A stretch of 39,794 nucleotides of DNA from Planctomycetia bacterium. GTDB lineage: Bacteria; Planctomycetota; Planctomycetia; Planctomycetales; Planctomycetaceae. The stretch covers positions 1 through 39,794 of the forward strand of contig JACQFH010000368.1 of assembly GCA_016200145.1 (NCBI GenBank), in the 5' to 3' direction. The notes under the pieces were generated by a model. That model was not told the origin of the DNA, searched no databases, and saw only the letters and a list, made by a program, of their open reading frames with translations. The position numbers were made by a program, and so were the translations under genes. Positions 5,934 through 21,680 of the stretch are shown here, in pieces. Positions within the stretch are counted from its first letter, which is position 1. Every line of letters begins with the position of its first letter.

Positions 5934-7748
5934 ATGTGGTCTCTTCCGCTGCTGATCATCGTCACCACGATCTTGCTGTCATTTCCGTTCGGCCGGTATC
6001 TGGCGTGGATCATGGACGGCAAATACAACCCGCCGGGCTGGCTGCGATGGATTGAAGATCGGCTGGACACGGGTGCGCAGAACTGGAAGCAGTACACCGT
6101 GGCCCTGATGCTCTTCAATACGATGGCATTCGTCGTTGGCTATGCGGTCCTTCAACTCCAGGCGTTCCTGCCGCTCAATCCTGATCATCGGGGGACGCTC
6201 AGTCCGACGACAATATTCAATACGGTGACGTCGTTCATGACGAACACCAACCTGCAGCACTACTCGGGCGACCAGCACCTGTCGCATTTCAGCCAGATCG
6301 GGTTCATTCTGTGGAACATGTTCACATCGGCCGCCGTGGGGTTTTGCGTCCTCGCGGCGATCATTCGCGGGCTGCGCGGCGATTCCCACATGGGAAATTA
6401 CTACAAAGACATGTGGCGCGTGATCGTGTACGCGTTCATTCCCGTGAGCCTCGTCATGGGCGTGCTGCTGATGGCCGAGGGGCAGCCGATGACGTTCGAA
6501 GGGCAGGCCCAGATCGCAACCGTTGAAGACGGAGCGATGGGGACCGCGCCCGACGGGAAGCCAAATCCGCAAATGATCGTCCGCGGACCGGTCGCGGCGA
6601 TCATGCCGATCAAGCATCTGGGGACCAACGGCGGCGGTTTCTACGGCGCCAATTCGGCGCATCCCTACGAAAACCCCACGGCCTGGAGCAACTTCCTGAC
6701 GTGCGTCAACATCCTCATCTTCCCGCTGTCGCTGATCGTCATGTTCGGCCGGATGCTCAACAACATGCGGCATGCGATGGTCATCTACGCGGTGATGACG
6801 ATCATGTTCTTCGGCATGGCCGGCTGGGCGATCTATTGGGACACGCTGCATCCAAATCCCGGATTGACAGCTCATGAAATGCAGACCTACGAGGCCGCCG
6901 ACGCAACAGCTCCCGGCGGCAAGCGAACGATCGACAGTCCAATGATTGCGGGACTGCCCGTCGACCAGGAACTGGGAAACCTCGAGGGCAAGGAACTGAG
7001 ATTCGGAACTTCCGCCGGGGCGACATTCGCGGCCATTACGACGGCTGTGACCTGCGGCTCGGTGAACTGCATGCACGACAGCCTGAACCCTCTGGCCGGC
7101 ATTACGCCGATGACCGGAATGTGGCTGAACTGCGTGTACGGCGGTAAGGGGGTCGGCATGGTGAACATGCTGGTGTACCTGATCGTCGGCGTCTTTCTGG
7201 CCGGTCTGATGGTGGGCCGGACCCCCGAATACCTCGGCAAAAAGGTCGAGGCGCGGGAGATGAAGCTGGCCATGCTGGCGCTGTTGATTCACCCGATCAT
7301 GATCCTGGGACCGACCGGCCTGTTCGCCGCCCTCGATTGGGGACGCGGCGCGACCAACAACCCTGGTTCACATGGCTTCTCCGAGATCCTGTACGAATTT
7401 TCTTCGGCCTCCGCCAACAACGGCTCGGGATTTGAAGGACTGGGAGACACGTATGGCTACTACGACAACCAGGCCCCGGCCCCGTTCAGCCCGCATTGGG
7501 ACATTGCCACGGGTCTGGTGATGCTCATCAGCCGCTACATTCCCATCATCGCACCGATCGCGCTGGCAGCGAGCCTGGCCGCGAAGAAACTGACCCCATT
7601 CACGGCCGGCACGATGCGGACCGATAACGTGACGTTTGCGTTCGTCCTGCTGGGAACCGTGCTGCTCGTGGGCGCCCTGCTGTTCCTGCCGGCCGCCGTC
7701 CTTGGCCCGGTGGCCGAACACCTCGGGCCACTGCCGTTCGGCGGGTAG
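5934..7748 (+). CDS. kdpA: KdpA, K+-binding and channel subunit of K+-transporting ATPase
   Basis: A 604-residue polytopic membrane protein that selects and conducts K+ in the high-affinity KdpFABC pump. It starts MWSLPLLIIVTTILLSFPFGRYLAW. Conserved family stretches include FNTVTSFMTNTNLQHYSG, the filter-region loop LGTNGGGFYGANSAHPYENP, TCGSVNCMHDSLNPLAG, and FSSASANNGSGFEGLGD. The protein ends with two hydrophobic helices. The first is preceded by FTAGTMRTDNVTFA. Length is at the upper end for the family because of a polar extracytoplasmic loop around residues 315-345. ATG at 5934 fits the family N-terminus. kdpB follows after an 89-base spacer that contains a dispersed repeat. Confidence 0.97.
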   Translation: MWSLPLLIIVTTILLSFPFGRYLAWIMDGKYNPPGWLRWIEDRLDTGAQNWKQYTVALMLFNTMAFVVGYAVLQLQAFLPLNPDHRGTLSPTTIFNTVTSFMTNTNLQHYSGDQHLSHFSQIGFILWNMFTSAAVGFCVLAAIIRGLRGDSHMGNYYKDMWRVIVYAFIPVSLVMGVLLMAEGQPMTFEGQAQIATVEDGAMGTAPDGKPNPQMIVRGPVAAIMPIKHLGTNGGGFYGANSAHPYENPTAWSNFLTCVNILIFPLSLIVMFGRMLNNMRHAMVIYAVMTIMFFGMAGWAIYWDTLHPNPGLTAHEMQTYEAADATAPGGKRTIDSPMIAGLPVDQELGNLEGKELRFGTSAGATFAAITTAVTCGSVNCMHDSLNPLAGITPMTGMWLNCVYGGKGVGMVNMLVYLIVGVFLAGLMVGRTPEYLGKKVEAREMKLAMLALLIHPIMILGPTGLFAALDWGRGATNNPGSHGFSEILYEFSSASANNGSGFEGLGDTYGYYDNQAPAPFSPHWDIATGLVMLISRYIPIIAPIALAASLAAKKLTPFTAGTMRTDNVTFAFVLLGTVLLVGALLFLPAAVLGPVAEHLGPLPFGG

Positions 7749-7749
7749 T

Positions 7750-7837
7750 CGGTGAATAACGAATGCCTAATGACGAATCCCGGCGCGCCGGGAAAGAAAT
7801 CCGAAATCCCAATTTCGAAATCCGAAATCAATTTCCC
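7750..7837. repeat. Dispersed AT-rich text-like repeat (copy 2)
   Basis: The kdpA-kdpB spacer is made of the words AATAACGAATG, AATGACGAATC, a GGCGCGCC palindrome, and then GAAATCCGAAATC, AATTTCGAAATCC. It is the same word set, inverted, as at 711-774. Read in the kdpB frame it gives an artefactual N-terminal extension ([14 protein letters not shown]), which argues for starting kdpB after it. Confidence 0.6.
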
Positions 7838-10027
7838 ATGTCACAAGCCACACTCGTCCAGCCTCCTCCGGTGCATCCCGGATCACCTGAGGATCTCAAG
7901 TTCAGCCGGCGCGAGAGCCGCCGCTACGGATTGTTTGCGCCGCATCTGCTGAAGGCGGCGTTCAGGCAGTCGTTCGCGATGCTCCGGCCCGACATCCAGT
8001 GGAAAAATCCGGTGATGTTTGTCGTCGAGATCGGGACGATTTTGAGCATCATCTTTACGTTCATCGCTCCCGGCGCGCAGTTGAAGTACCTCATCCAGCT
8101 CGACATCTGGCTGTTTGCCACGGTGCTGTTCGCCAATTTCGCCACGGCGCTGGCGGAAGCCCGCGGCAAGGCCCAGGCCGATACGCTCCGCAAGACGCGC
8201 AAAGAAACGCCTGCGTTTCGGCTGCGCGAAACGGGCCAGATCGATCAGGTCGTGTCGACGGCCCTGCAGGCGGGTGACCGCGTCGTCGTCGAGGCGGGAC
8301 AGGTCATCCCCGGTGACGGCGAAATCGTGGAAGGGGTCGCCTCGGTTGACGAGTCGGCGATCACCGGCGAATCGGCCCCCGTCATCCGTGAAGCAGGTGG
8401 AGACCGGTCGGGGGTCACCGGCGGGACTCGCGTGCTCTCTGACCGGATCGTCGTCAAGATCACAGCCAGCGCCGGCAAATCGTTTCTCGATCGCATGATC
8501 GCCCTTGTCGAAGGGGCCATCCGCCAGCGCACTCCCAACGAGATCGCCCTGTCGCTCGTGCTCTCTGCATTCACGCTCATCTTCTTGATCGTCACGGCCG
8601 CGCTTTGGCCGATGGCGCTGAATGCTGAAATGTATATGCAATCGTCACCATACCTGGATGCGACGCAGCCCCTGAAAAGCCTGGGGACCGACGTGCCGAC
8701 GCTCGTCGGCCTGCTCGTGTGTCTGATCCCCACGACAATCGGCGCGCTGCTGGCGGCGATCGGGATCGCCGGAATGGATCGAGCGTTGCGGGCGAATATT
8801 CTCGCCAAGAGCGGCAAGGCGGTCGAAGTCGCCGGCGACGTCGATACGCTGCTGCTCGACAAGACCGGCACAATCACGGTCGGAAATCGCCGGGCCACGC
8901 AGTTTATTCCCCTCGACGGCTACACGGCCGCCGACGTGGGTCGCCTGGCCGCCATGGCCTCGGTCGCCGACCAGACGCCGGAAGGCAAGAGCATCGTCGA
9001 CCTGTTCCAGAAGCTGCCGGTCGAAGCCGGCGCGAGTCGCCTCTCGGCCGGCACGTTGCCGCTGGAAATGGTGATCCCACAGGGCGCACATTTCGTCGAA
9101 TTCACGGCGCAGACGCGCATGAGCGGGCTCGACCTTCCCGACGGCCGGAAGATCCGCAAAGGCGCGCCCGACTCGGTCTTCAAATATGTCCAGCACTCGA
9201 ATGGCCGCATCGCTCCCTCGGTGCAGCAACAGGTCGATGAAGTCGCCTCGCGCGGCGCCACGCCGCTGGTCGTCTGCGAAGAGAGCAAACTTGCGGGGCT
9301 CGTCGTGCTGGAAGACATCCTGAAACCCGGCATGCGCGATCGCTTCGAACGCCTGCGCCGCATGGGACTGCGGACGGTCATGGTCACGGGCGACAACCCG
9401 CTCACGGCCAAGGCCATCGCCGAGCAGGCGGGCGTCGACGCCTTCATCGCCCAGGCCACCCCCGAAGCCAAGCTCGAGTACATCCGCAAAGAGCAGGCGG
9501 ACGGCAAGCTCGTCGCCATGATGGGGGACGGCACGAATGACGCCCCCGCGCTGGCGCAGGCCGACGTGGGCGTCGCCATGAATTCGGGGACCCAGGCCGC
9601 AAAAGAGGCCGGCAACATGGTCGATCTCGACAGCGACCCCACGAAGCTCATTGAAGTCGTCGAAATCGGCAAGCAGCTTCTGATGACGCGCGGGGCGCTG
9701 ACCACGTTCTCGATCGCCAACGACCTCGCGAAGTATTTTGCCATCGTCCCGGCCCTGTTCGCCGGCACGCTGCCGTGGCTCAAGGCGTTTGACGTAATGA
9801 ACCTGCATTCGCCGACCTCGGCGATTCTCTCGGCCGTGATCTTCAACGCGATCATCATTCCGCTGCTGATTCCAATCGCCCTCAGGGGGGTCGAATACCG
9901 CCCCGTCGGCGCCGATGCGCTGCTTCGGCGGAACCTGCTGATCTGGGGCCTGGGGGGCGTGGTCGTTCCGTTTGTCGGAATCAAACTGCTGGATGTCGTC
10001 CTGTTTGCAGTCGGTGTCATCCAGTGA
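7838..10027 (+). CDS. kdpB: KdpB, P-type ATPase subunit of K+ transporter
   Basis: A 729-residue P-type ATPase that hydrolyses ATP to drive K+ uptake through KdpA. It has the actuator motif TGES (176-179), the phosphorylated aspartate D341 in [13 protein letters not shown], the nucleotide-binding domain, [20 protein letters not shown], and the hinge [24 protein letters not shown]. Membrane helices occupy both ends. [20 protein letters not shown] precedes the P domain, as in other KdpB proteins. I use ATG at 7838 ([10 protein letters not shown]). An upstream in-frame ATG at 7763 would add 25 residues encoded by repeat DNA. No clear ribosome-binding site is visible at either start. Confidence 0.97.
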
Positions 10028-10112
10028 GGCCGGCGTTCGACCGGTTGTGTTGCTCAACGGACTTTCGCAGTCGGCCGCCAATTGCAGCCGCGGCAAATTT
10101 TGAAATCGAGAC

Positions 10113-11117
10113 ATGCTCATGAACGCTCACCTGCGTGCCAACTTCCTGCTCCTCGTCGTCACCATCGTCTTGTGCTGCGTCGTCTATCCGGCAATCCTGT
10201 TCGGGATCGGGCAGACGGTGTTTCACGACAAGGCCGAGGGGAGCCTGATCTACGACAAGCAGGGCAAGCCCATCGGCTCGCACCTGATCGCCCAGCCGTT
10301 TTCCGGGGAAGGCTACTTCCAACCGCGCCCTTCGGCTGTTTCCTACAACGCAGCCGGATCGGGCGGTTCAAACTGGGGAGCGAACCAGTACTTGCTTCGC
10401 GAACGCGTCGCCCGCCAGCTCGGCCCGATCGTCAAGTACGCCGGCGCCCGCAAGGGACAGCCCGTCGGGCCCGACGTCGAAGCCTGGTTCCAGAAGGACC
10501 AGTACGACGGTAAGCCCGGAATCGTCGCGCAATGGGCCGCCGCTCACGGTACGGTGGCCTCCAACTGGGCCAAGGCGGACCCGCTCAATGGAGGCTACGT
10601 GCTCGCCTGGATGAACGACCACGCGGACGACATGGCGCAGTGGAAGAAAGACAACCCCGACAATGCCGCTCCGAAGCCGGAAGACATGGCGGTTACCTTC
10701 TTTTCCAGTTTCTCGAAAGTGCATCCGGGCGAATTTCCGAGCGCCGTGGAATCTGCCACCGCAGACGGCAAAAGTGAGAAAACAATTCAGCCAGTCAAAG
10801 CGGGAACCGACATTCAGGGAATCTTCTTCGACTTATGGCGGCAGGAACACCCTACAGCCGACCTTGAACCCGTACCTGCCGACATGGTGATGGCATCCGG
10901 GTCGGGGCTCGACCCGCACATCACGCTCAAAAACGCGCTGTACCAGCTCGACCGCGTGGCCGCCAGGCGCGCCGCCGACACGAACCGCAACGTGAATGAG
11001 GTGCGCAAGGAAATCGAAGCTCTGTTGCAGCAGAAAAAGGAAGCTCCGCTGGGAGGGCTGGTCGGGGTTGATCTTGTGAACGTTCTCGAAGTGAACCTGG
11101 CCCTGCGCGATCGGTAG
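10113..11117 (+). CDS. kdpC: KdpC, enlarged subunit of K+-transporting ATPase
   Basis: A 334-residue protein with one N-terminal membrane helix (about 9-32). Standard KdpC motifs flank both ends: QPFSGEGYFQPRPSAVSYNA plus GSGGSNWG (61-89), and PADMVMASGSGLDPHIT (255-271) plus LVGVDLVNVLEVNLALRDR. Ordinary KdpC proteins have about 190-200 residues. Here a segment of roughly 140 residues (about 105-250) separates the two conserved halves. That insert is hydrophilic and Trp-rich (NWAKADPLNGGYVLAWMNDH, FFDLWRQEHP) and belongs to no family I recognise. ATG at 10119 is an alternative start. KdpC caps KdpA and aids ATP affinity and complex assembly in the characterised system. No kdpD or kdpE follows. 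Confidence 0.95.
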   Translation: MLMNAHLRANFLLLVVTIVLCCVVYPAILFGIGQTVFHDKAEGSLIYDKQGKPIGSHLIAQPFSGEGYFQPRPSAVSYNAAGSGGSNWGANQYLLRERVARQLGPIVKYAGARKGQPVGPDVEAWFQKDQYDGKPGIVAQWAAAHGTVASNWAKADPLNGGYVLAWMNDHADDMAQWKKDNPDNAAPKPEDMAVTFFSSFSKVHPGEFPSAVESATADGKSEKTIQPVKAGTDIQGIFFDLWRQEHPTADLEPVPADMVMASGSGLDPHITLKNALYQLDRVAARRAADTNRNVNEVRKEIEALLQQKKEAPLGGLVGVDLVNVLEVNLALRDR

Positions 11118-11969: not shown

Positions 11970-12848
11970 TCATTCCGTCGCGATCAGCGTCCTGCTGGCC
12001 AGGAACAGAACGGTCAAGCCGTAGATCGGCAATGCCACCAGGCTCCCCCACGAATTGACGAATGATCCGTCGGCTTTCAGCAGCTCCTGGATCACGTTGT
12101 TGGCGTAGTACAGCGGAGTCAGGAAGCTGGCCCACTGCGCCCAGGTCGGCAGCTTGTCTGCGGAAATGATCACGCCCGAAAGCAAAATCGAGGGGACTGC
12201 CACCATGGGAATGAACGGCAGGATCTGCCCCTCCGTCCGCGCGAAGTTCGAAACGAAAATGCCGAGCGCGACGCTGGTCACCGCCAGGAGCCAGATGACG
12301 AAGTAGATTGACACCAGCGTCCCGCCGCCCAGCCGCAGTTTGAAGAGGAATGTGAGCTCGATCAGCACCAGCAGGCTTTGCAGCGTCGCCAGTCCTGAAT
12401 AGGCGAGCACATAGCCGCCGATGATCTCAAACTGCCGATAGCCGCTCACGAACATCCGCCCGAGCGTCTGTGCGGTGCGCTCGCGGACCAGCACGAGCGC
12501 GCACAGGAGATAGGTAATCAAGTGCACGATGAACGCGCCCAACGGGACGGCGATCTGAGTGGGCTCGGTGGTCTGTGGCCGGGAACCGGGCGCAAATGGC
12601 GGCAGTGTTTGCAGAACAGTCTGCCGGAGCTCGTCTGGCAAGTCCTGCTGTTCGAGTAGAGCTTGCAGGGCCTCCGGGGACGGCATCGGGGAAGCGGCCG
12701 TCAGCCCGAAACTGTCGACAAAAATCTTCACAACGTAGATCACGACGACCGGCACAACCAGCGACAGTCCCAGAAAACGGCGATCGTGGCGCAGTTGGCG
12801 GAGCACCCGTCCGGCGACAGAGATCAGACGGTGGAATCTAGCGGGCAT
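11970..12848 (-). CDS. ABC-2 type transporter permease
   Basis: A 292-residue membrane protein. An N-terminal helix (LGLSLVVPVVVIYVVKIFV) is followed by an extracytoplasmic stretch of about 80 residues. A bundle of about five helices follows, with family-typical wording: LVRERTAQTLGRMFVSGYRQFEIIGGY, the helix LPFIPMVAVPSILLSGVIIS, and LPTWAQWASFLTPLYYANNV. ATG at 12848 overlaps the last 11 bases of the ATPase gene, which supports this start and translational coupling. The frame runs on upstream inside the ATPase gene, but that part is a shadow. Such permeases dimerise with an ATPase to export drugs, polysaccharides or other substrates; the substrate here is not predictable. Confidence 0.92.
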   Translation of the reverse strand: MPARFHRLISVAGRVLRQLRHDRRFLGLSLVVPVVVIYVVKIFVDSFGLTAASPMPSPEALQALLEQQDLPDELRQTVLQTLPPFAPGSRPQTTEPTQIAVPLGAFIVHLITYLLCALVLVRERTAQTLGRMFVSGYRQFEIIGGYVLAYSGLATLQSLLVLIELTFLFKLRLGGGTLVSIYFVIWLLAVTSVALGIFVSNFARTEGQILPFIPMVAVPSILLSGVIISADKLPTWAQWASFLTPLYYANNVIQELLKADGSFVNSWGSLVALPIYGLTVLFLASRTLIATE

Positions 12849-13725
12849 GCCTGTCTTCCATTTTGACCAGACGCAGAACAATCGTTTCCAGCGAATCGGC
12901 TTCCAGCTCAATTCTCGTGACGGCCGCGTCCAGGTTGTGCTGCTGGAGCAGGACCGGAAGTTGATCCGCATAATTCTCGACCATTGTCGATTCGACCCGG
13001 CCGGCACGCGTGACGTGAATCGTCGTCCGGCCCAGTCGCAAGAGATTCTTCGGAGTCTCGCAGACAAGGATCACCCCATCGCGCATCACGGCGACGCGAT
13101 CACAGTGCAGCACCTCGTCCATCTGGTGGGTGCTGACGAGGAGCGTGGCGCCGGCAGAAGCGAGAGCGCGAAAGTGCTGCCAGAACGTCTCGCGCAAGCG
13201 CGGGTCGACGCCTGCCGTGGGCTCGTCCAGCAAGAGTACCTGCGGGCGATGCACGAGCGCACAGGCCAGCGAGACGCGCTGTTTCATTCCGCCTGAGAAG
13301 CCGTACACCGGATCGGTCTCCCGCGATCGCAGGTCGATGAACGACAGGACCTCGTCGAGTCGCGGCTCGAGATCGGGTGGCCCGTGCGGAATCCCGAAGA
13401 AGCGCAAGTTCTCGCGGGGGGAGAGGTCTTCGTAGAGCGCCGGCGCCTGCGGCATATAACCGATACTCGGCCTGAGGGCGTGGGCCTGTCTGATCGGATC
13501 GAGCTCCAGCACCGAGACCGTGCCGGCGGTCGCTCGCAGGGCGCCGATCAGCGTCTTGATCAGTGTCGTTTTACCCGCGCCGTTCGAGCCCAGCAGGCCG
13601 AAGATTTCCCCCTGCGTCACCGTGAGGCTTACGCCTTTCAGAGCCTCGACGGCGCCGAACCGCTTTTGAAGCCTGTCAACGACGATCACCGGCCGGCGAT
13701 CTGATGTGAGGTTCATTGGACGCAC
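12838..13725 (-). CDS. ABC transporter ATP-binding protein
   Basis: A 295-residue ATPase with Walker A GSNGAGKTT (46-54), a Q-loop in YMPQAPALYEDLSPREN, a signature motif FSGGMKQR (F in place of the common L), Walker B VLLLDEPTAGVDP and the switch histidine in STHQMDE. After the nucleotide-binding domain, a C-terminal extension of about 75 residues (from about 220) resembles the regulatory tail of DrrA/CcmA-type exporters. ATG codons at 13725 and 13716 are both possible. It is the first gene of a two-gene unit with the permease. It ends about 40 bases from the stop of the protease gene upstream on the same strand, so read-through from that cluster is possible. Confidence 0.95.
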   Translation of the reverse strand: MRPMNLTSDRRPVIVVDRLQKRFGAVEALKGVSLTVTQGEIFGLLGSNGAGKTTLIKTLIGALRATAGTVSVLELDPIRQAHALRPSIGYMPQAPALYEDLSPRENLRFFGIPHGPPDLEPRLDEVLSFIDLRSRETDPVYGFSGGMKQRVSLACALVHRPQVLLLDEPTAGVDPRLRETFWQHFRALASAGATLLVSTHQMDEVLHCDRVAVMRDGVILVCETPKNLLRLGRTTIHVTRAGRVESTMVENYADQLPVLLQQHNLDAAVTRIELEADSLETIVLRLVKMEDRHAR

Positions 13726-13764: not shown

Positions 13765-15168
13765 TTATCGTACTGGTATCAATGGATTTCGTCTTCTCGA
13801 AGAGGGTGGGACATCCGTTATTTCCGTCAGGCCGTCACCTCGAATCCCGGACAAAACGACAAGAGTCGGGCGACCAGCGCTGCAGCCGGGGCAGCGCTCG
13901 TACCGGCGGGTGCCCATATTGACGGCGAGCAAGCGTCGGTCGTAAATCAGGCCGCATTCCGGACATTTGGCTTGTCCCAGCAGGCGGTGCCGCAAGCCGC
14001 GCCATCCCGCGGGATCGGCGGACTTGAAAAAGTGGTTCAGCAGGGCAACCATGCCCGAGAAAAACAGAAGGAGCCACGCTTGCATGAGCACAGTCCAGAC
14101 AGAGTGACTGAGTCCACCAACATTCCAGGCCATCAGTGCATTTGGAAAGTTGCCGAGATAGTGCAGGCCCATCGCGCACAGGATGCCGCGCAGCGGCGCT
14201 TGGGGAAACAGCCGCAAGGCCGCCGCCGTCATCGCGCCGTGATGGATGCAGACCATAAGCCTCTCGACGATGAAGCCGCCAAGTGTCATGAACGAGTACC
14301 AGGGAATGCGGCCCAACTGAGGGTCCTGGGAAACGAATCCTGCTGTCGCCCAGGCCTCGCCAATACCGAAGCCCAAGCCGATTGCCATTGCGATTCCTGG
14401 GGCATTTTCTTTTCGCAATCGGCCGACAAACGCGGGGACGAGCAGGAGCCAGAGCTTCGCCGGTTCTTCAGTCAGCGGCGCGAAGCAAGTGTCGAGGACG
14501 GCGAACGCCCGCGAATCGGCCTCTAGAACTTCGGCGAGCCACGCTTTCACTGGAAGCCGCACCCAGTAGAAAGCGATGGCCCACATCGGGACGTGCACCG
14601 CCATAACCTGCGTAAGGAATCGCCAGTCGGCGCGCGGCGTTGCGGCGAGGATGAAACGGCCGATCAGGAGAATGGCAAGCAAACTGGTGATTGCAGCCGC
14701 GACATACACCCCTGCCGCCGTTGCCGCCTCGAATTCGGGGGCTCGATCGACCCGCACGAGCCTGAGAGGCCGTCTTCCGCCGGATTGCTGCCACTCACCG
14801 ACCAGCTCTTGCTTGTCCGGGTTGAGTTCTCCTGTAAAAGCCCGATCGCCGTCGATTTCGACGCGAAGACGGCCATTTTGCCAGTCAATTTTCGTGATGG
14901 GCAGGTCCTTCCTTCCCCGATCGGGACTGTCCATCGTGCCTGCCAGAGCCCCGGCGGAGTCCCTGGATATTTTGATGACGACGCGGACCCGCTCGCCCTC
15001 CGGGTCCAATGTTCCCAGCCAAATTCCCACGATCTCCGTGTCTGGGGTTGACGACGGCTGGCTGTGCTGCGCTGACGCCGACGAAATCATGCAGTACATT
15101 GCGCAAGCGAGGACTACGACTCCAGCCGCAAGTCTCGGACAACCGGATTCTGAAAAACGATTGAGCAT
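13765..15168 (-). CDS. Exported beta-domain / PrsW-YhfC-like intramembrane protease / zinc ribbon fusion
   Basis: A 467-residue protein in three parts. A signal sequence (about 12-33, ending ASA) leads to a beta-rich domain (about 44-140; IVGIWLGTL, LAGTMDSPDRG, LVGEWQQSG). This type is often found attached to exported hydrolases. Residues about 150-385 form a multi-helix membrane domain with the hallmarks of PrsW/YhfC glutamic or metallo-type intramembrane proteases: EExxK (E234, E235, K238), E271 in GFGIGEA, ER at 302-303, HH at 309-310 in CIHHGAMTAAAL, and H336 in LHYLGN. The tail has a CxxC...CxxC zinc ribbon (C402, C405, C426, C429). The gene is last in a collinear cluster with an ECF sigma factor and a receptor-like kinase. 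Protease assignment is by motif only. Confidence 0.78.
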   Translation of the reverse strand: MLNRFSESGCPRLAAGVVVLACAMYCMISSASAQHSQPSSTPDTEIVGIWLGTLDPEGERVRVVIKISRDSAGALAGTMDSPDRGRKDLPITKIDWQNGRLRVEIDGDRAFTGELNPDKQELVGEWQQSGGRRPLRLVRVDRAPEFEAATAAGVYVAAAITSLLAILLIGRFILAATPRADWRFLTQVMAVHVPMWAIAFYWVRLPVKAWLAEVLEADSRAFAVLDTCFAPLTEEPAKLWLLLVPAFVGRLRKENAPGIAMAIGLGFGIGEAWATAGFVSQDPQLGRIPWYSFMTLGGFIVERLMVCIHHGAMTAAALRLFPQAPLRGILCAMGLHYLGNFPNALMAWNVGGLSHSVWTVLMQAWLLLFFSGMVALLNHFFKSADPAGWRGLRHRLLGQAKCPECGLIYDRRLLAVNMGTRRYERCPGCSAGRPTLVVLSGIRGDGLTEITDVPPSSRRRNPLIPVR

Positions 15169-15194
15169 GATGCGTTGTCTCGGTCCCAGTCTCT

Positions 15195-15524
15195 TTAATC
15201 AACGCTGCGGAGATGTCCGCGATTCAGGTAGCGGTCCTTGAGCTCGACCTCGTACTGGTACGATTTTGTTTGCCCGTCTCGAAGCGGTTCGATACCCGCT
15301 TCGGCGCCGCACATGCGGAGCACATCGAACACGCGGAAGTACACCTCAAGTTTGTGGCGCTGTCCCGCAGCCACTTCAATGTCCGTTGATCCGTTCCACT
15401 TCAGCTTGATCTCCTGGCCATCGACCAGCCCATGCGGGGGATGAAACGAGTTGTTAAGCCTGCCTGCCCACTCCCACCCCTGGGGTATCGCGTAGTTGCA
15501 CGTGATTCGGATTGTCGCTGACAT
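15195..15524 (-). CDS. Small hypothetical protein, beta-rich
   Basis: A 109-residue soluble protein with no signal sequence or membrane helix. It has alternating hydrophobic strands (ATIRITCNYAIP, EIKLKWNGSTDIEVAAG, KLEVYFRVFDVLRMCGAE, SYQYEVELKDRY) that suggest a beta-sandwich. It lies 82 bases downstream of the PH-like gene and 26 bases upstream of the protease gene, on the same strand. No family recognised. Its conserved-looking coding pattern and tight spacing support a real gene. Confidence 0.7.
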   Translation of the reverse strand: MSATIRITCNYAIPQGWEWAGRLNNSFHPPHGLVDGQEIKLKWNGSTDIEVAAGQRHKLEVYFRVFDVLRMCGAEAGIEPLRDGQTKSYQYEVELKDRYLNRGHLRSVD

Positions 15525-15606
15525 TTATCTCTCCTGATGTGGAACTGCGAAAACGACCATCAACCAGCGCTGAGCACGCCCCGATTAGCACCAGATTCCC
15601 CGGCGT

Positions 15607-15993
15607 CTAGGACGTGAGCAACCGAATTACCTCTTCCGGATACTCAACCTCAACGATCATTTCGTCAAAGTGCTCGTGGTCGAGGTCGATGCGGATCGCT
15701 TTCTCCGGATGTCGTACGTCCCAGAAGATCCGCCTGCCATCCTGGAGAAAAGTACCGTAGGCGAATCGGCCGGGAATGCTAGTGCCCCCGAGCACTGGCG
15801 TGAGCCAGCCCGGCTTGGATTCGGAGATTGAAGGGTCGCGCCGCGCGCCGCGGATATGCGCCCGTGGGACCTCCAGGCGAGCCTTGAACGACCAGAGATT
15901 TGCCGTGAGCTTTTCCCAGAAGGCCAGGTCGTGTGTGTCGATCCCGCCTGCCTCGAACACGATTTCGTCGTTCTGCCTGCTAACCGTAACCAT
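15607..15993 (-). CDS. Hypothetical protein with bacterial PH-like fold pattern
   Basis: A 128-residue soluble protein. Wording such as LEVPRAHIRGARRDP, GTSIPGRFAYGTFLQDG, RIFWDVRHPEKAIRIDL and MIVEVEYPEEVIRLL matches a widespread uncharacterised bacterial group. In that group, strand-rich domains carry a GTF...G...FWDVxxPxxAI core, which I associate with PH-like folds. The function of that group is not known to me. It is separated from the upstream kinase gene by 82 bases and from the downstream 109-residue gene by another 82 bases. Confidence 0.75.
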   Translation of the reverse strand: MVTVSRQNDEIVFEAGGIDTHDLAFWEKLTANLWSFKARLEVPRAHIRGARRDPSISESKPGWLTPVLGGTSIPGRFAYGTFLQDGRRIFWDVRHPEKAIRIDLDHEHFDEMIVEVEYPEEVIRLLTS

Positions 15994-16075
15994 CGAGTGT
16001 CTCCTTGCTTGAGGACTTAACTGACGTGATCGCGTCGGGTGACGCCGTTGTTGGGTTCAACGATCGCCTTGCGGT

Positions 16076-19000
16076 CTACGGAAGTGTCAGAACCTCCAGG
16101 GCCACGAGCGAATGTCTGTGGCTGATGACGATCGGCAGCGTTTCGGGAGACTTCGCGGGCAGCCAGAAGTGATTTGCCGAATAAGGCCGGTTTCCGATTT
16201 CGCGGGGCAAGCCGCTGGCGCGACGCAACAAACGCCCGGTGCCGGCGGCCAGTTCGAAAAACTGAGAGCCGAATTGCACGACAAGTGACCGTTGGCCGCC
16301 ATCCGCCGAACAAAGTTGAATTCCTCCCGGGGCGATCGACGGTCCGTCAGGCGAGGTCCATGTCCAAAGCTCCTGCTGGACGCCGTCGATCGCGCGCAGG
16401 GCTCCGTTATTCCAGGCGATCAGCTCGTCGCGTCCATCGCCATCCAGATCGGCGACAGGCGACAAACCCATCACATTGTCGGCGACGGCTGCCGGGGAGT
16501 GCCACCGAACCGCGCCATCAGCTCCAATGACAGTCAGTCCGGTCCTCAGGGCGTCGTATTGGCCGACAAGCACGACTGAGGAACCATCGTTGTCTGCCAG
16601 ATCGGCCAACAATGGCACGGGCGTCGGAAGTTGCGCGTCGACTCCCTCCCAAGTGTGAAGAACTCTGGCCTTTCCGACGTCGGCGGCGAGAAGGATGACG
16701 GCATACCGCGGCGCGGCCGAGTCATTCTCGGTCGCCTGACGCTCGATGAGAACAATTTCCGACTTGCCATCGCCGTCGAGATCGCCGACAACCGGAAGAG
16801 GAACAAGGTCGAGGAACCTCGCCGCGTCGTTTCGTCCAATCTGAGTGGGCAAAGCATACGTCCACAACAATGCCCCGTCACTTCCGCTGCGCGCCTGAAT
16901 TTCGGCGGTGCAAGTCTGTGCATCGTCCAATCGTGGCACGACCAGAATCAGGTCGCTGCGTCCGTCTCCGTTAACGTCGGTTTGATTCGCGACATGTCGC
17001 GGTTGAGCGTGACGATCGAGCGGCTCTGTCTTGAGAGCGCCCTCAGTGAGGGGTGCGGCCCAGATGACCGAGCCCGTGGCTCCCTTCACGAGAGCCAGCC
17101 AATACTGAGCGCTCCTGTCGTCGTTCCCCCATTGCAGTTGGAAGCAACACAGAACTTCCGGCCGCTGATCTCCGTCGAGATCGACGGCTGTTCCGAACGT
17201 GTCATACGCGAACAGCAGCGACTTCGCCGCCTTGACCTGTTGAATAATCGGTTCGGGAACTGCGAACATGGGCGTATCCCACAAAATGTCCCCAGTCTCG
17301 GTAGAAACAGCCCGAAATGGGATTTCCATGGTCTTGTCCAAACGGGGGGCGGTATCGTGAAAGCGGTTTTGAAAGTAGCGAGCCAGAATGTCGGGAATTC
17401 CCCGGCCATCGAGGTCGCCGTGCGGCCCGGCCAGCACCTGATTGTTAAAGCTGGTCTGCGTGCGGATGCGGCGAACGATGCTGCCGTCGCGACCCGAATA
17501 GATTCGGGTCCACGCGTCGATTAAAGCGCCCGGTGGGCGCGTTTCCAGGAGGTCGGCGACACCGTCGCCGTCACAGTCGTGGATGGGGACGGCTCCGCCG
17601 GTCCTGCGCCAGAGTTCGCGCGGCGTGCCGCCCAGCGCCTGCACGCGATCGCCTTCGACCGTGTGGCGCCGATACCAGAGATCGATCAACCCGTCGCCAT
17701 CAAAGTCAGCCGGATAAGCCACATCGACATCCAGCAGCTTTTCGGTTTCGCGCTGCTGTTCCAGAGAGACGACGGCCAGTCGCTTCTCGTCCGGGTTTCC
17801 GTAACGCGAACGAGCAATCGACACCAATAAGTCCGGCCAGCCGCGGCTGCTCCGCGCCCACCAGGTCGCGCCGTCGAACCGACCTGCCAGCACCGACGGC
17901 ATGAACCCGCCCACATTGTCGTGGCGCCAGCGCGCCAACCGCTCTCCGTCGCGGCCTGAAAGCCCATCAACAAACAGGTCCATTCGATTCCATTCGCCGG
18001 ACTGAGAAGGACCGGTCGAAATGACTACGAGCTCGCGGTGCCCGTCGTCACTCACGTCGGGAGCGACCAGCAATTGACGAAATACGGGAGTTTGCCCTCC
18101 TGCCTGGTACAGAACGCGCGACCAGCGTCGTTTCCCGGATGTCCCGTCGAATACGTGGATCCCAAAACGGGAATCATTGTTCGCCACCGTTGCACGAGGA
18201 GAATCGACCACGCCCGGCATGACGATTTCGGGCCGTCCATCAAGTTCCAGATCGACGACCAGGGGCCAATTGGCAAATTGAGCGGCCTTTCGGAAGTGGT
18301 GCGCGTGGGCTGCATCCGCCGTCAACTCGATTCGTCGCGAGACGTTCTGTGTCCAGAGCACGCCCTTGGATTTCAGGTCCATGGCTGTCAACACGGCATC
18401 GCCTCGCGAGTCGTGAAACAGTAGAGCATCGGTGTTTCCATCCGCGTTGAGGTCAATCCACTGCGTCGCGTGCAGCAACAGGAACTGGCCGTCGGTATGG
18501 TGGACCTGTTCACTGAGCAGGAGAGGCCATTCGAAAGCACCCTCCAGCGGTGTTCCGGTCGACGCGCTCACCAGCAGCATCCGAGTCCCCAGATCGACGG
18601 AAACATGCGCCCGGCCGTCCAGAGTAACCAGGGCAGTCGTCGGGACGTGATCGGTCCCGTTACTGTTCGCTGCCCCCCGATCGACGTCGTATTGCCACAG
18701 TGAAGTTCCATCGCTGCCACGAATGGCTTCGATCCAAGTTCGCTGGGGGCTCTGAAACGTGGCGATCAAATCAGGACGTGCATCTCCGTCCACATCGGTG
18801 ACGAGCGGCTGACCGAGCACTCTGCGGCCATTCCCCACCTCGCTGCGAAATCTCCACAAGAGGCTGCCGTCTGCACCGGAGACGGCCAGCACCGAAGTGG
18901 CGTCTCGCAGCACCCAGACGAGATCGCCCGTTCCGTCGGCGTTCAAGTCGGGGGGAAGCGCTCGTTTGTTTGGCGGTTCGAGCTGGATGTTCGCGTCCCA

Positions 19001-20788
19001 CGTGGCACGCGCCAGTGGCTTGAGCAACTCCGGCGGATTCGCCGCGTTGAAGTTGCGTTCGAGCTCAATCAGTTGATCTGCCAGCGGTCGCTCCCAGACG
19101 ACATTCGTCGTGCGACCCTCCAACCGGCGGAGCATCGTCCGGCCGAATCGGCGTTCGAGCACAATTACGGCATCCTGATCTGCCAGGCGAATGACGTCAG
19201 CAAAGTCGGCCGGCCCGATCTGGATCGGCTTCCAAAGCTGCCGGTCCCGCAGGTCCACAGTGTATTCAGGACTCCATCCACGATCGACCGTAAGCAGTTG
19301 CGTCTGACTCCACTCGCCGGGAGCGGAAAATTGCACGCGATACTCGCCTGCCGGCAGTGGGACAAGCTGTTCGGTGGGTACCGTGAACGCCGGCACGACC
19401 AGTTCGCCGTGGTCGTTGCGCACCTCTGCCGTGAGCGGGTAACCATCGGTCTTCAGGCTGATTCGTCCAAGCTGCATCTCGTAGTAGGCGTGCCGGCCGA
19501 ACCACGCGCCTGTAGCAATGAGCAATGATGTGGCCGCCGTGGCGGCTGTGCGGATGAGCGTTTTGCGGTGTTTGCGAGCCAGCCGCAGCGCCTTCTCCAC
19601 AAGACCGAGCGGGCGGGCGACGATCGCTTCGCCGTCGAGATACCGCTGGAGATCGTCCGCCAGCGCTTTCGCGCTGTCGTATCTCCGGTGGGGCTCCTTT
19701 TCGAGGCACTTCAGGCAGATGGTTTCGAGGTCGCGCGGCACCGCCGCATTGAGTGCCCGCGGCGACACAGGTTCTTTTTCGAGCACCTGCAGCAGCGTAT
19801 CAACTGGACTGGCGGCCTGAAACGGGGGTCGCCCGGCCAGAAGGCAGTAAAGCAGTGCCCCCAGCGAATAAACATCGGCCAAGGGGCCGATCTCGGCCGT
19901 CCTGCCGGCAGCCTGTTCGGGCGGCATGTAACTGGGCGTTCCCAACACCTGACCGGTCACGGTCAACTGGGCCGGTGATTCGTCGTCTACCTCGCCGGTC
20001 CCCACGCGCTTGGCCAGCCCAAAATCGGTGATATGCGGCTCACCGGCGCGATCCATCAGGATATTGGCCGGCTTAAGGTCCCGATGAACGACTCCTTCCA
20101 CGTGTGCATAAGAGATGGCCCGAACCACTTTGAGGATGATCGCTGCCGCTTCACGAGGCGGCAGCACTTCGCGCGAAACGCGATGCGCCAGGCTCTCGCC
20201 GTCGATGAATGCCATCGTGAAGTAATGCTGCTGCTCGTGCTGACCGATCTCGAAAATCGGCACGATATGGGCATGCTCGAGTCTGGCCGCCGCCTGGGCT
20301 TCCGCGTAGAACCGCTTGATTTCCTCGTCGTTCGCCAACTGGCCGACGAGAATCATCTTGAGCGCCACAATCCGTTTGAGATTGGCCTGCCGCGCCTTGT
20401 AGACGACCCCCATCCCGCCGCGGGCGATCTCTTCGAGCAGCTCGTAGTCGCCGAAGTACCGGACGCGTATGCCGGGTTGCGGCGGCGGGGCCGACGTTCC
20501 CACGATCAACGTCGGCGTTTCCAGCAGCGCCGCGTGACTTTTGCCTTCGGTGTCGTCGTTCGCGGGCAACGGCTGTTGCCCCACGGCCGGTTTGTAGGGC
20601 GCGACGACGCGATCGAAACGTTCTTTGTCGCCGAAGAACTCCTCGAGTTGCGAGGCAAACTCGGGATGCCGCGCCACGAACTCCTGCCTGTCCGGTACCG
20701 TGCCGGCTTCAACCGCCTGCATGTACTCGGCCAGAACGGCATCGAGCCGGCTGTCCGAACCAGTCTGGTCGCTTCCAGAATTCGTCAC
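16076..20788 (-). CDS. Receptor-like Ser/Thr protein kinase with FG-GAP/VCBS-like repeats
   Basis: A 1570-residue protein. A short N-terminal region (1-105) has the motif REFVARHPEFASQLEEFF, common in planctomycete kinases. The kinase domain (about 110-390) is intact: glycine loop IARGGMGVVY (121-130), K144 in VALK, catalytic HRDLKPAN (D237), DFG (255-257) and the GTPSYMPPEQ activation-segment end. A membrane helix follows (about 410-430). The rest, over 1100 residues, is presumably outside the cytoplasm. It contains many D-x-D/N-x-D-G-x-x-D repeats (DLNADGTGDLVWV, DVDGDARPDLIATF, DLDGDGKSEIVLI, DLDGDGRDELIAW) typical of calcium-binding beta-propeller blades. It starts 3 bases after the ECF sigma gene, so the two are cotranscribed. 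Ligand and substrates are unknown. Confidence 0.96.
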   Translation of the reverse strand: MTNSGSDQTGSDSRLDAVLAEYMQAVEAGTVPDRQEFVARHPEFASQLEEFFGDKERFDRVVAPYKPAVGQQPLPANDDTEGKSHAALLETPTLIVGTSAPPPQPGIRVRYFGDYELLEEIARGGMGVVYKARQANLKRIVALKMILVGQLANDEEIKRFYAEAQAAARLEHAHIVPIFEIGQHEQQHYFTMAFIDGESLAHRVSREVLPPREAAAIILKVVRAISYAHVEGVVHRDLKPANILMDRAGEPHITDFGLAKRVGTGEVDDESPAQLTVTGQVLGTPSYMPPEQAAGRTAEIGPLADVYSLGALLYCLLAGRPPFQAASPVDTLLQVLEKEPVSPRALNAAVPRDLETICLKCLEKEPHRRYDSAKALADDLQRYLDGEAIVARPLGLVEKALRLARKHRKTLIRTAATAATSLLIATGAWFGRHAYYEMQLGRISLKTDGYPLTAEVRNDHGELVVPAFTVPTEQLVPLPAGEYRVQFSAPGEWSQTQLLTVDRGWSPEYTVDLRDRQLWKPIQIGPADFADVIRLADQDAVIVLERRFGRTMLRRLEGRTTNVVWERPLADQLIELERNFNAANPPELLKPLARATWDANIQLEPPNKRALPPDLNADGTGDLVWVLRDATSVLAVSGADGSLLWRFRSEVGNGRRVLGQPLVTDVDGDARPDLIATFQSPQRTWIEAIRGSDGTSLWQYDVDRGAANSNGTDHVPTTALVTLDGRAHVSVDLGTRMLLVSASTGTPLEGAFEWPLLLSEQVHHTDGQFLLLHATQWIDLNADGNTDALLFHDSRGDAVLTAMDLKSKGVLWTQNVSRRIELTADAAHAHHFRKAAQFANWPLVVDLELDGRPEIVMPGVVDSPRATVANNDSRFGIHVFDGTSGKRRWSRVLYQAGGQTPVFRQLLVAPDVSDDGHRELVVISTGPSQSGEWNRMDLFVDGLSGRDGERLARWRHDNVGGFMPSVLAGRFDGATWWARSSRGWPDLLVSIARSRYGNPDEKRLAVVSLEQQRETEKLLDVDVAYPADFDGDGLIDLWYRRHTVEGDRVQALGGTPRELWRRTGGAVPIHDCDGDGVADLLETRPPGALIDAWTRIYSGRDGSIVRRIRTQTSFNNQVLAGPHGDLDGRGIPDILARYFQNRFHDTAPRLDKTMEIPFRAVSTETGDILWDTPMFAVPEPIIQQVKAAKSLLFAYDTFGTAVDLDGDQRPEVLCCFQLQWGNDDRSAQYWLALVKGATGSVIWAAPLTEGALKTEPLDRHAQPRHVANQTDVNGDGRSDLILVVPRLDDAQTCTAEIQARSGSDGALLWTYALPTQIGRNDAARFLDLVPLPVVGDLDGDGKSEIVLIERQATENDSAAPRYAVILLAADVGKARVLHTWEGVDAQLPTPVPLLADLADNDGSSVVLVGQYDALRTGLTVIGADGAVRWHSPAAVADNVMGLSPVADLDGDGRDELIAWNNGALRAIDGVQQELWTWTSPDGPSIAPGGIQLCSADGGQRSLVVQFGSQFFELAAGTGRLLRRASGLPREIGNRPYSANHFWLPAKSPETLPIVISHRHSLVALEVLTLP

Positions 20789-20791
20789 GGC

Positions 20792-21388
20792 CTACTCCAA
20801 GTTCCTGAGTGACTCTCGCAATTGCTTGAGTCCCCGTTTGATCAGTCCCGCCACGGCCGCGGGACTGCGTCCCATCTCCTCGCCGATCTGTGCCAGCGAT
20901 CGCCCGTGCCAGTTCTGAAGCACGAGCGCCTCGCGCTGCGCGTCGGGCAACTGGCCGAGCGCGTCGGCTAACCGCACCGCCTGTTCATGACTGTGGGCCT
21001 TGTGACTCGGGGATGATTCCTGCGTCGTAAGCCACGAACCGAGCCGCAGGGACGATGTTTCCAATGCGGCCTCCAATGATCGCTCTCGCCCGATATCGCG
21101 TTTCGCGCGGCCCAGTCGCCGGAGCGCGTCGACCAGATTCCGCGCCAGAATCTGACGGAGCCACGCCGCCAGCTCCCCCGAATTCTGGCCCCGGAACTGT
21201 TGCCGTTTTTCGTGCGCGTCGAGGAGCGTCTGCTGGACGAGATCCGACGGGTCAAACTGGCCCCTGAGTTGCGACTGGAATTCCAGGCGCGCCAGTATCA
21301 GCAGATACTCGCGGTATCGTTCCAGTTGCGAATTTCGCTGCTCGTCGGTTCGGCCCATCGGCACAGCCTCTCCAGAGACAGACGCCAT
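20792..21388 (-). CDS. ECF-type RNA polymerase sigma factor linked to a Ser/Thr kinase
   Basis: Up to 198 residues. Region 2 (about 25-95) has DPSDLVQQTLLDAHEKRQQF and AAWLRQILARNLVDALRR. Region 4 (about 140-195) has LPDAQREALVLQNWHGRSLA with the helix-turn-helix MGRSPAAVAGLIKRGLKQLR. A GGAGAGG ribosome-binding site 8 bases before ATG 21358 favours a 188-residue product over the start at 21388. Sigma factors of this kind encoded directly before Ser/Thr kinase genes are known from planctomycetes (ECF-STK groups). The kinase is thought to replace a classical anti-sigma factor. No anti-sigma gene is seen here. The gene heads a minus-strand series running to 13765. Confidence 0.94.
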   Translation of the reverse strand: MASVSGEAVPMGRTDEQRNSQLERYREYLLILARLEFQSQLRGQFDPSDLVQQTLLDAHEKRQQFRGQNSGELAAWLRQILARNLVDALRRLGRAKRDIGRERSLEAALETSSLRLGSWLTTQESSPSHKAHSHEQAVRLADALGQLPDAQREALVLQNWHGRSLAQIGEEMGRSPAAVAGLIKRGLKQLRESLRNLE

Positions 21389-21680
21389 TCTTGCACGAAT
21401 TGGGCGCGAATTCTCTCATGAATTCCAGAGTTGCCGCCGGAAGTCCGGCAGCTCCTTGAACTTCCTCGCGTTTTGTGGAAACTGCGGGCGGGAAACACCA
21501 ATTGTTGCGACAGCAGGCGAACCTCCCACCTCGATCTACTATCCTAATTGCTTTGGGATGGGAGGATGGAAGATGGAGGATCGAAGATGGCGAGATGCGA
21601 ATACTGTCTGTCGCCATCCTCCATCTTCGATCCTCCATCCTCGCCTCACCCCTCTCGTTGTCCACTCACGGAGACGACCG
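21389..21680. other. Divergent promoter region between sigma factor and rtcB
   Basis: A 292-base spacer holding promoters for the sigma-kinase unit (minus) and rtcB (plus). Its right half is occupied by an inverted repeat made of GGAGGATGGAAGATGG-type words. No specific promoter boxes could be assigned by eye. Confidence 0.4.
21572..21639. repeat. Inverted repeat of the ATGGAGGAT word family
   Basis: A perfect 19-base inverted repeat (21572-21590 and 21621-21639) is separated by 30 bases and embedded in longer purine-rich and pyrimidine-rich runs of the words GGAGGATGG, GAAGATGG and ATCGAAG. It sits in the rtcB leader, ending about 40 bases before the start codon. This word type is another short dispersed element I associate with planctomycetes. 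As RNA it would form a strong hairpin in the 5' untranslated region. Confidence 0.75.

Follow-up and report, generated by a model that had tools for sequence, protein, structure and literature searches.

The window analysed here is a 39,794-nucleotide stretch of a planctomycete genome (contig JACQFH010000368.1), in which five minus-strand open reading frames follow one another at positions 13765-21388. Re-calling the open reading frames reproduced exactly the five collinear genes described in a first-pass annotation, together with their gaps of 3, 82, 82 and 26 bases. The features of the run are as follows.

20792..21388, minus strand: ECF sigma factor, 198 aa, ATG start, of the planctomycete subfamily TIGR02984
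21245..21247, minus strand: codon of sigma factor Ser48, in the DPSD motif of region 2.2; proposed phospho-acceptor, placed by alignment
16076..20788, minus strand: Hanks-type Ser/Thr kinase with an FG-GAP/PQQ-like propeller region, 1570 aa, GTG start
15607..15993, minus strand: p128, 128 aa, ATG start, possibly bacterial-PH-like; adjacent, membership in a system with the pair not supported
15195..15524, minus strand: p109, a 109-aa orphan protein, ATG start; adjacent, membership in a system likewise not supported
13765..15168, minus strand: protease fusion, 467 aa, ATG start
14728..15168, minus strand: N-terminal part of the fusion, a hydrophobic segment and a beta domain
13765..14718, minus strand: PrsW/APH-1/CPBP-superfamily membrane domain of the fusion, with a C-terminal zinc ribbon (CPEC...CPGC)

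The same-strand run extends past the protease: an ABC ATPase gene starts at 13725, 39 bases after the protease stop codon, and is followed by an ABC-2 permease gene whose open reading frame overlaps it (window 11970-13725). Shine-Dalgarno-like sequences (AAGGAG/AGGAG) precede both p128 and p109.

The sigma factor scored 192 bits against TIGR02984 (cut-off 183.75) and contains ECF sigma domains 2 and 4 by Pfam and NCBIfam. The kinase matched the Pfam models Pkinase (1.9e-50) and FG-GAP_3 (7.7e-20); its kinase domain spans residues 115-377, with intact catalytic motifs (HRDLKP at 235, DFGLA at 255), and the propeller region covers residues 600-1500 or thereabouts. Relatives of the sigma factor at E<=1e-25 were found in 36 of 59 genomes, and among 30 sigma proteins drawn from 30 genomes (the window included), 26 are encoded near a similar kinase gene on the same strand. 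Pairs also occur at loci L057-L061, L063 and L064, with differing kinase C-termini. Where longer stretches of a locus were read, sigma factor and kinase are again paired, but what follows the pair varies, as does the C-terminal part of the kinase: L057, the nearest of the sigma-linked relatives that were read from end to end, has WD40 in its kinase, and the kinase of L063 has no added domain match. On another contig of the same genome (L232) and in genome G043 (L229), a sigma gene adjoins a near-full-length relative of the FG-GAP kinase, about 32% identical to the window kinase over the C-terminal region; in G049 (L230), a sigma gene adjoins a partial relative, matching the C-terminal region. 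The gene order at all three loci is kinase, then sigma. Because the pair recurs with varying kinase C-termini and downstream genes, we conclude that it is a genuine, modular unit, and that the first two genes of the run are a recurrent planctomycete pair of known kind. The first-pass view of a kinase-linked ECF sigma factor is thus borne out by this pairing and by the TIGR02984 and Pkinase matches. The genome as a whole has a large ECF complement, with 70 sigma matches in 8.3 Mb (G000, L027), many of which adjoin kinases.

No anti-sigma family was among the Pfam and NCBIfam matches of the five proteins, which supports the earlier suggestion that the kinase replaces an anti-sigma factor. The same annotation had given the kinase a huge extracytoplasmic FG-GAP sensor. 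The large FG-GAP region is real; membrane anchoring is weakly predicted, with a best 19-residue hydropathy of 1.16 near residue 410. We infer that the propeller probably faces outside the cytoplasm and would respond there to a ligand. Planctomycete Ser/Thr kinases with periplasmic WD40/TPR arrays (PMC11032199) likewise place a C-terminal repeat or propeller region after the kinase domain, whereas the propeller of the window kinase is of the FG-GAP type.

In region 2.2 the sigma factor reads DPSD where canonical ECF sigma factors read DAED, with Ser48 at the Glu position. By alignment, Ser48 is the third position of the motif, the same one that is phosphorylated in the STTA motif of EcfP. Of the 30 sigma proteins aligned (30 genomes, the window included), 27 have Ser here. 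Within the window's own genome, 70 ECF matches yielded 59 aligned sequences and 49 with a readable residue at the motif position; Ser was present in 8 of 19 kinase-linked and 3 of 30 unlinked ECF sigma factors (Fisher p 0.014; the test takes no account of relatedness, and one pair at a contig end was manually assigned to the linked class). In these alignments, the enrichment of Ser beside kinases is suggestive only.

Precedents for kinase control of such sigma factors exist. EcfP is reported to stay inactive until PknT phosphorylates a Thr within its substitute for the DAED motif, and several planctomycete ECF groups are predicted to be kinase-controlled, some with Ser or Thr in or near the motif (PMC8999054, PMC8103513); EcfP/PknT and EcfK/PknS are the precedent pairs (PMC8999054, PMC13147305). 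As in ECF43 (EcfP-PknT of Vibrio, EcfK-PknS of Xanthomonas) and the planctomycete groups ECF59/61/62/217, the ECF gene of the window lies beside a Ser/Thr kinase gene. The window sigma factor also resembles phosphorylation-activated ECFs in lacking an adjoining anti-sigma factor and, in part, in its altered DAED motif, which has Ser at the acceptor position. Unlike ECF43, it keeps both Asp residues of the motif (DPSD, not STTA), its kinase has an FG-GAP propeller as sensor, and its phosphorylation is a prediction.

The recurrent pairing, the intact kinase motifs and the Ser substitution are the observations behind the switch that we propose, and from them we infer that the sigma factor is phosphorylated, at which site and with what sign. 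The kinase, with its FG-GAP beta-propeller sensor, would phosphorylate the adjacent sigma factor, most likely on Ser48 of DPSD. Phospho-Ser48 would supply the negative charge that the DAED Glu gives canonical ECFs and would favour binding of the sigma factor to core RNA polymerase; neither an anti-sigma factor nor proteolysis would be needed. Because the acidic residues D46 and D49 are retained, phosphorylation may tune rather than create sigma activity, and the unphosphorylated protein may not be inactive. The two Asp residues also leave room for a different arrangement, in which the sigma factor could bind RNA polymerase unmodified and the kinase acts as an anti-sigma scaffold, controlling it by binding and not by phosphorylation. 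We consider this quite unlikely, since the catalytic motifs of the kinase are intact and Ser is largely conserved at the EcfP phospho-position across the kinase-linked family. The first lead to come from this locus is that Ser, conserved at the position of the EcfP phospho-acceptor in a large family of planctomycete sigma factors for which activation by phosphorylation is a proposal.

The protease fusion itself had no Pfam or NCBIfam match, and neither did p128 or p109. A profile of the protease family aligned motif by motif with 17 PrsW domains (hhalign probability 95.7, E 9e-9), with the EExxK, GF..E and His motifs in register. Invariant in a 20-member family alignment were EExxK, GxGFxxGE, ER, two His, an Asn and the four zinc-ribbon Cys; several members outside this alignment have no zinc ribbon. 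An AlphaFold2 model of the protease (pLDDT 86) resembled APH-1 (Z 15.5 over 218 residues) and TMEM147 (Z 14.2), with the next unrelated chain at Z 8.6 and Rce1 at Z 5.7. By sequence profile and predicted fold, then, the membrane domain belongs to the PrsW/APH-1/CPBP superfamily, with its motif residues intact, and it would probably cleave some membrane protein. The earlier label of a PrsW/YhfC-like protease stands as to superfamily, motifs and fold, but the window protein does not reach the cut-off of either family: 9 of the 20 family members matched PF13367 (PrsW) at E<=1 (best 5e-6) and 4 of the 20 matched PF10086 (YhfC; best 0.0011), the window protein matching neither.

PrsW of Bacillus subtilis, the site-1 protease of RsiW, has the EExxK, GF..E and His motifs in common with the window protease. 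Unlike it, the window protease has no RsiW-type anti-sigma partner and no Pfam match of its own, and it carries a C-terminal zinc ribbon and an N-terminal beta domain. The closest solved folds, APH-1 of gamma-secretase and TMEM147 of the BOS complex, resemble the window protease at the level of predicted fold; neither of these eukaryotic proteins is known to act as a protease. PrsW proteins joined to a zinc ribbon, and others fused to further signalling domains, have been reported (PMC3482391), but the window protease differs from those fusions in its N-terminal beta domain.

Using a two-sequence alignment, we found 39 relatives of the membrane domain in species-representative genomes across many phyla, including Coatesbacteria, Ignavibacteria, Lentisphaerae, Verrucomicrobia, Planctomycetes and Alphaproteobacteria, with further relatives in a Nostoc, an archaeal MAG and others; a scan with the window protease alone found none. 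A phylum search with the 20-row alignment returned the window and fragments only, and is an undercount because the best six candidates per genome were scored. Nearly all relatives are standalone proteins of roughly 240-310 residues, usually with the zinc ribbon, and one (L073) has a long C-terminal repeat-like extension. This widespread, hardly annotated and mostly zinc-ribbon branch of PrsW-type proteases, for which APH-1 and TMEM147 are the nearest matches to the predicted fold, is the second lead. Three Ignavibacteria (L071, L072, L080) keep the same neighbours around the zinc-ribbon PrsW-type gene, which is preceded at 15-53 bases by a gene for an S9 peptidase and followed by one for a UvrD-type helicase. 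Upstream of the PrsW-type gene, a Cloacimonadota and a WOR-3 MAG (L083, L086) encode PAS-GGDEF proteins.

In the window, the protease is fused to a secreted-type beta domain: a hydrophobic segment at residues 13-31 is followed by the beta domain at about 37-147. The fusion was not seen at the 39 other protease-family loci. Relatives of the beta domain precede alpha/beta hydrolases in 12 of 13 cases and a beta-lactamase-like enzyme in the other, these partners being assigned by reading the sequence and not by a family scan.

The first-pass annotation had proposed that the five genes form one envelope-signalling system, and had named a neighbourhood comparison in which the protease and PH-like genes fail to travel with the sigma-kinase pair as the outcome that would speak against it. 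That is what we found. Among 99 genomes of relatives, the protease membrane domain occurred in one (G049), where it forms a protein by itself, encoded at the edge of a contig and followed by a gene that, from reading the sequence, is DUF1080/dehydrogenase-like. Genome G001, of the same genus and 96% complete, carries the sigma gene and the N-terminal part of the kinase at the end of a contig; in the whole of that genome, no relative of p128, p109 or the protease membrane domain was detected. The three other pairs of sigma factor and FG-GAP kinase (L229, L230, L232) are likewise without protease, p128 and p109. Conversely, a sigma profile that recovered the sigma gene at 11 of 11 loci known to hold one detected no ECF sigma factor at any of the 39 loci of the protease family, in flanks that reached 10 kb at most and less where a contig ended. 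A single one of these 39 loci (L076) has a kinase, 1.4 kb from the protease-family gene and on the opposite strand. The full five-gene combination was seen in no genome except that of the window, and nothing found in these sequence comparisons ties the substrate of the protease to the kinase or the sigma factor.

Thus, the striking five-gene 'system' falls apart once neighbourhoods are compared. The best explanation, to which we assign a probability of about 0.7, is that an ordinary planctomycete signalling pair, working as a sigma-kinase phospho-switch, lies side by side with an unusual and separate PrsW-superfamily protease. Collinearity and short gaps, with 26 bases before the protease, fit co-transcription and count against this separation. 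Promoter-like and terminator-like sites within the run did not exceed those in shuffled sequences (in a scan covering sigma-70-type promoters), and the RNA folds of the two 82-base gaps were unremarkable (z -0.73 and 1.05). The collinearity, the short gaps, the lack of excess promoter-like or terminator-like sites and a protease with the intact motif residues of the PrsW superfamily speak for a single envelope-signalling operon, where cleavage of the kinase or of some other membrane partner by the intramembrane protease would control the sigma factor. Since no relative has the same five genes to compare, such an operon could be recent and lineage-specific; we nevertheless regard it as very unlikely, because the protease accompanies the pair in no relative examined, nor the reverse, and G001, from the same genus, holds the pair but not the protease. 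A more specific version, in which this lineage recruited the PrsW-type protease, zinc ribbon and extracytoplasmic beta domain included, into the sigma-kinase operon and the protease sheds or activates the FG-GAP kinase to give a proteolysis-gated phospho-sigma switch, strikes us as highly improbable.

The genes downstream of the pair might also be its outputs. If p128, p109, the protease and the ABC transporter formed a regulon of the sigma factor and not parts of the switch, their position directly downstream on the same strand, including the ABC ATPase 39 bases past the protease, would be accounted for. We consider this unlikely: no sigma-specific promoter motif was derived, the related loci read have other downstream genes, and ABC genes near two other pairs belong to other types. 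A candidate association of ABC transporters with sigma-kinase pairs (window, L229, L230) was dropped, as the ATPases compared were 28% identical, the permeases were unrelated and the ABC genes at L230 were of another type.

For p128 and p109, the best explanation is that they are lineage-specific passengers or local accessories alongside the pair and the separate protease. We found no credible relative of p128 in 149 genomes; partial planctomycete matches (E 0.002-0.009, one with a stop codon) were judged to be chance. Searches of viral contigs found none either, and plasmids of Streptomyces and Limosilactobacillus did carry relatives. The sole Pfam match of these plasmid relatives was bPH_5, below cut-off (E 0.12 and 0.037), and p128 itself had no bPH_5 match, so the PH-like assignment of the first reading is only faintly echoed in the relatives and not in p128. 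A single-sequence model of p128 had a pLDDT of 34, too low for fold reading. For p109, no relative was found in the 149 genomes or in plasmids, and no PDB match was significant.

Two further features of the window lie outside the run. Between the sigma gene and a divergent RtcB-like gene, GGAGGATGGAAGATGGAGGATC-type units form a 37-base inverted repeat with 81% complementarity (window 21557-21647); one more similar site (L206) was found in the 485 kb of the same genome that were read, and none in the loci of other genomes. On the other side, genes for KdpA, a KdpB-like protein and KdpC lie at window 5934-11117; the KdpC protein has 334 aa, and the 182-position Pfam KdpC model matched it in two separate stretches.
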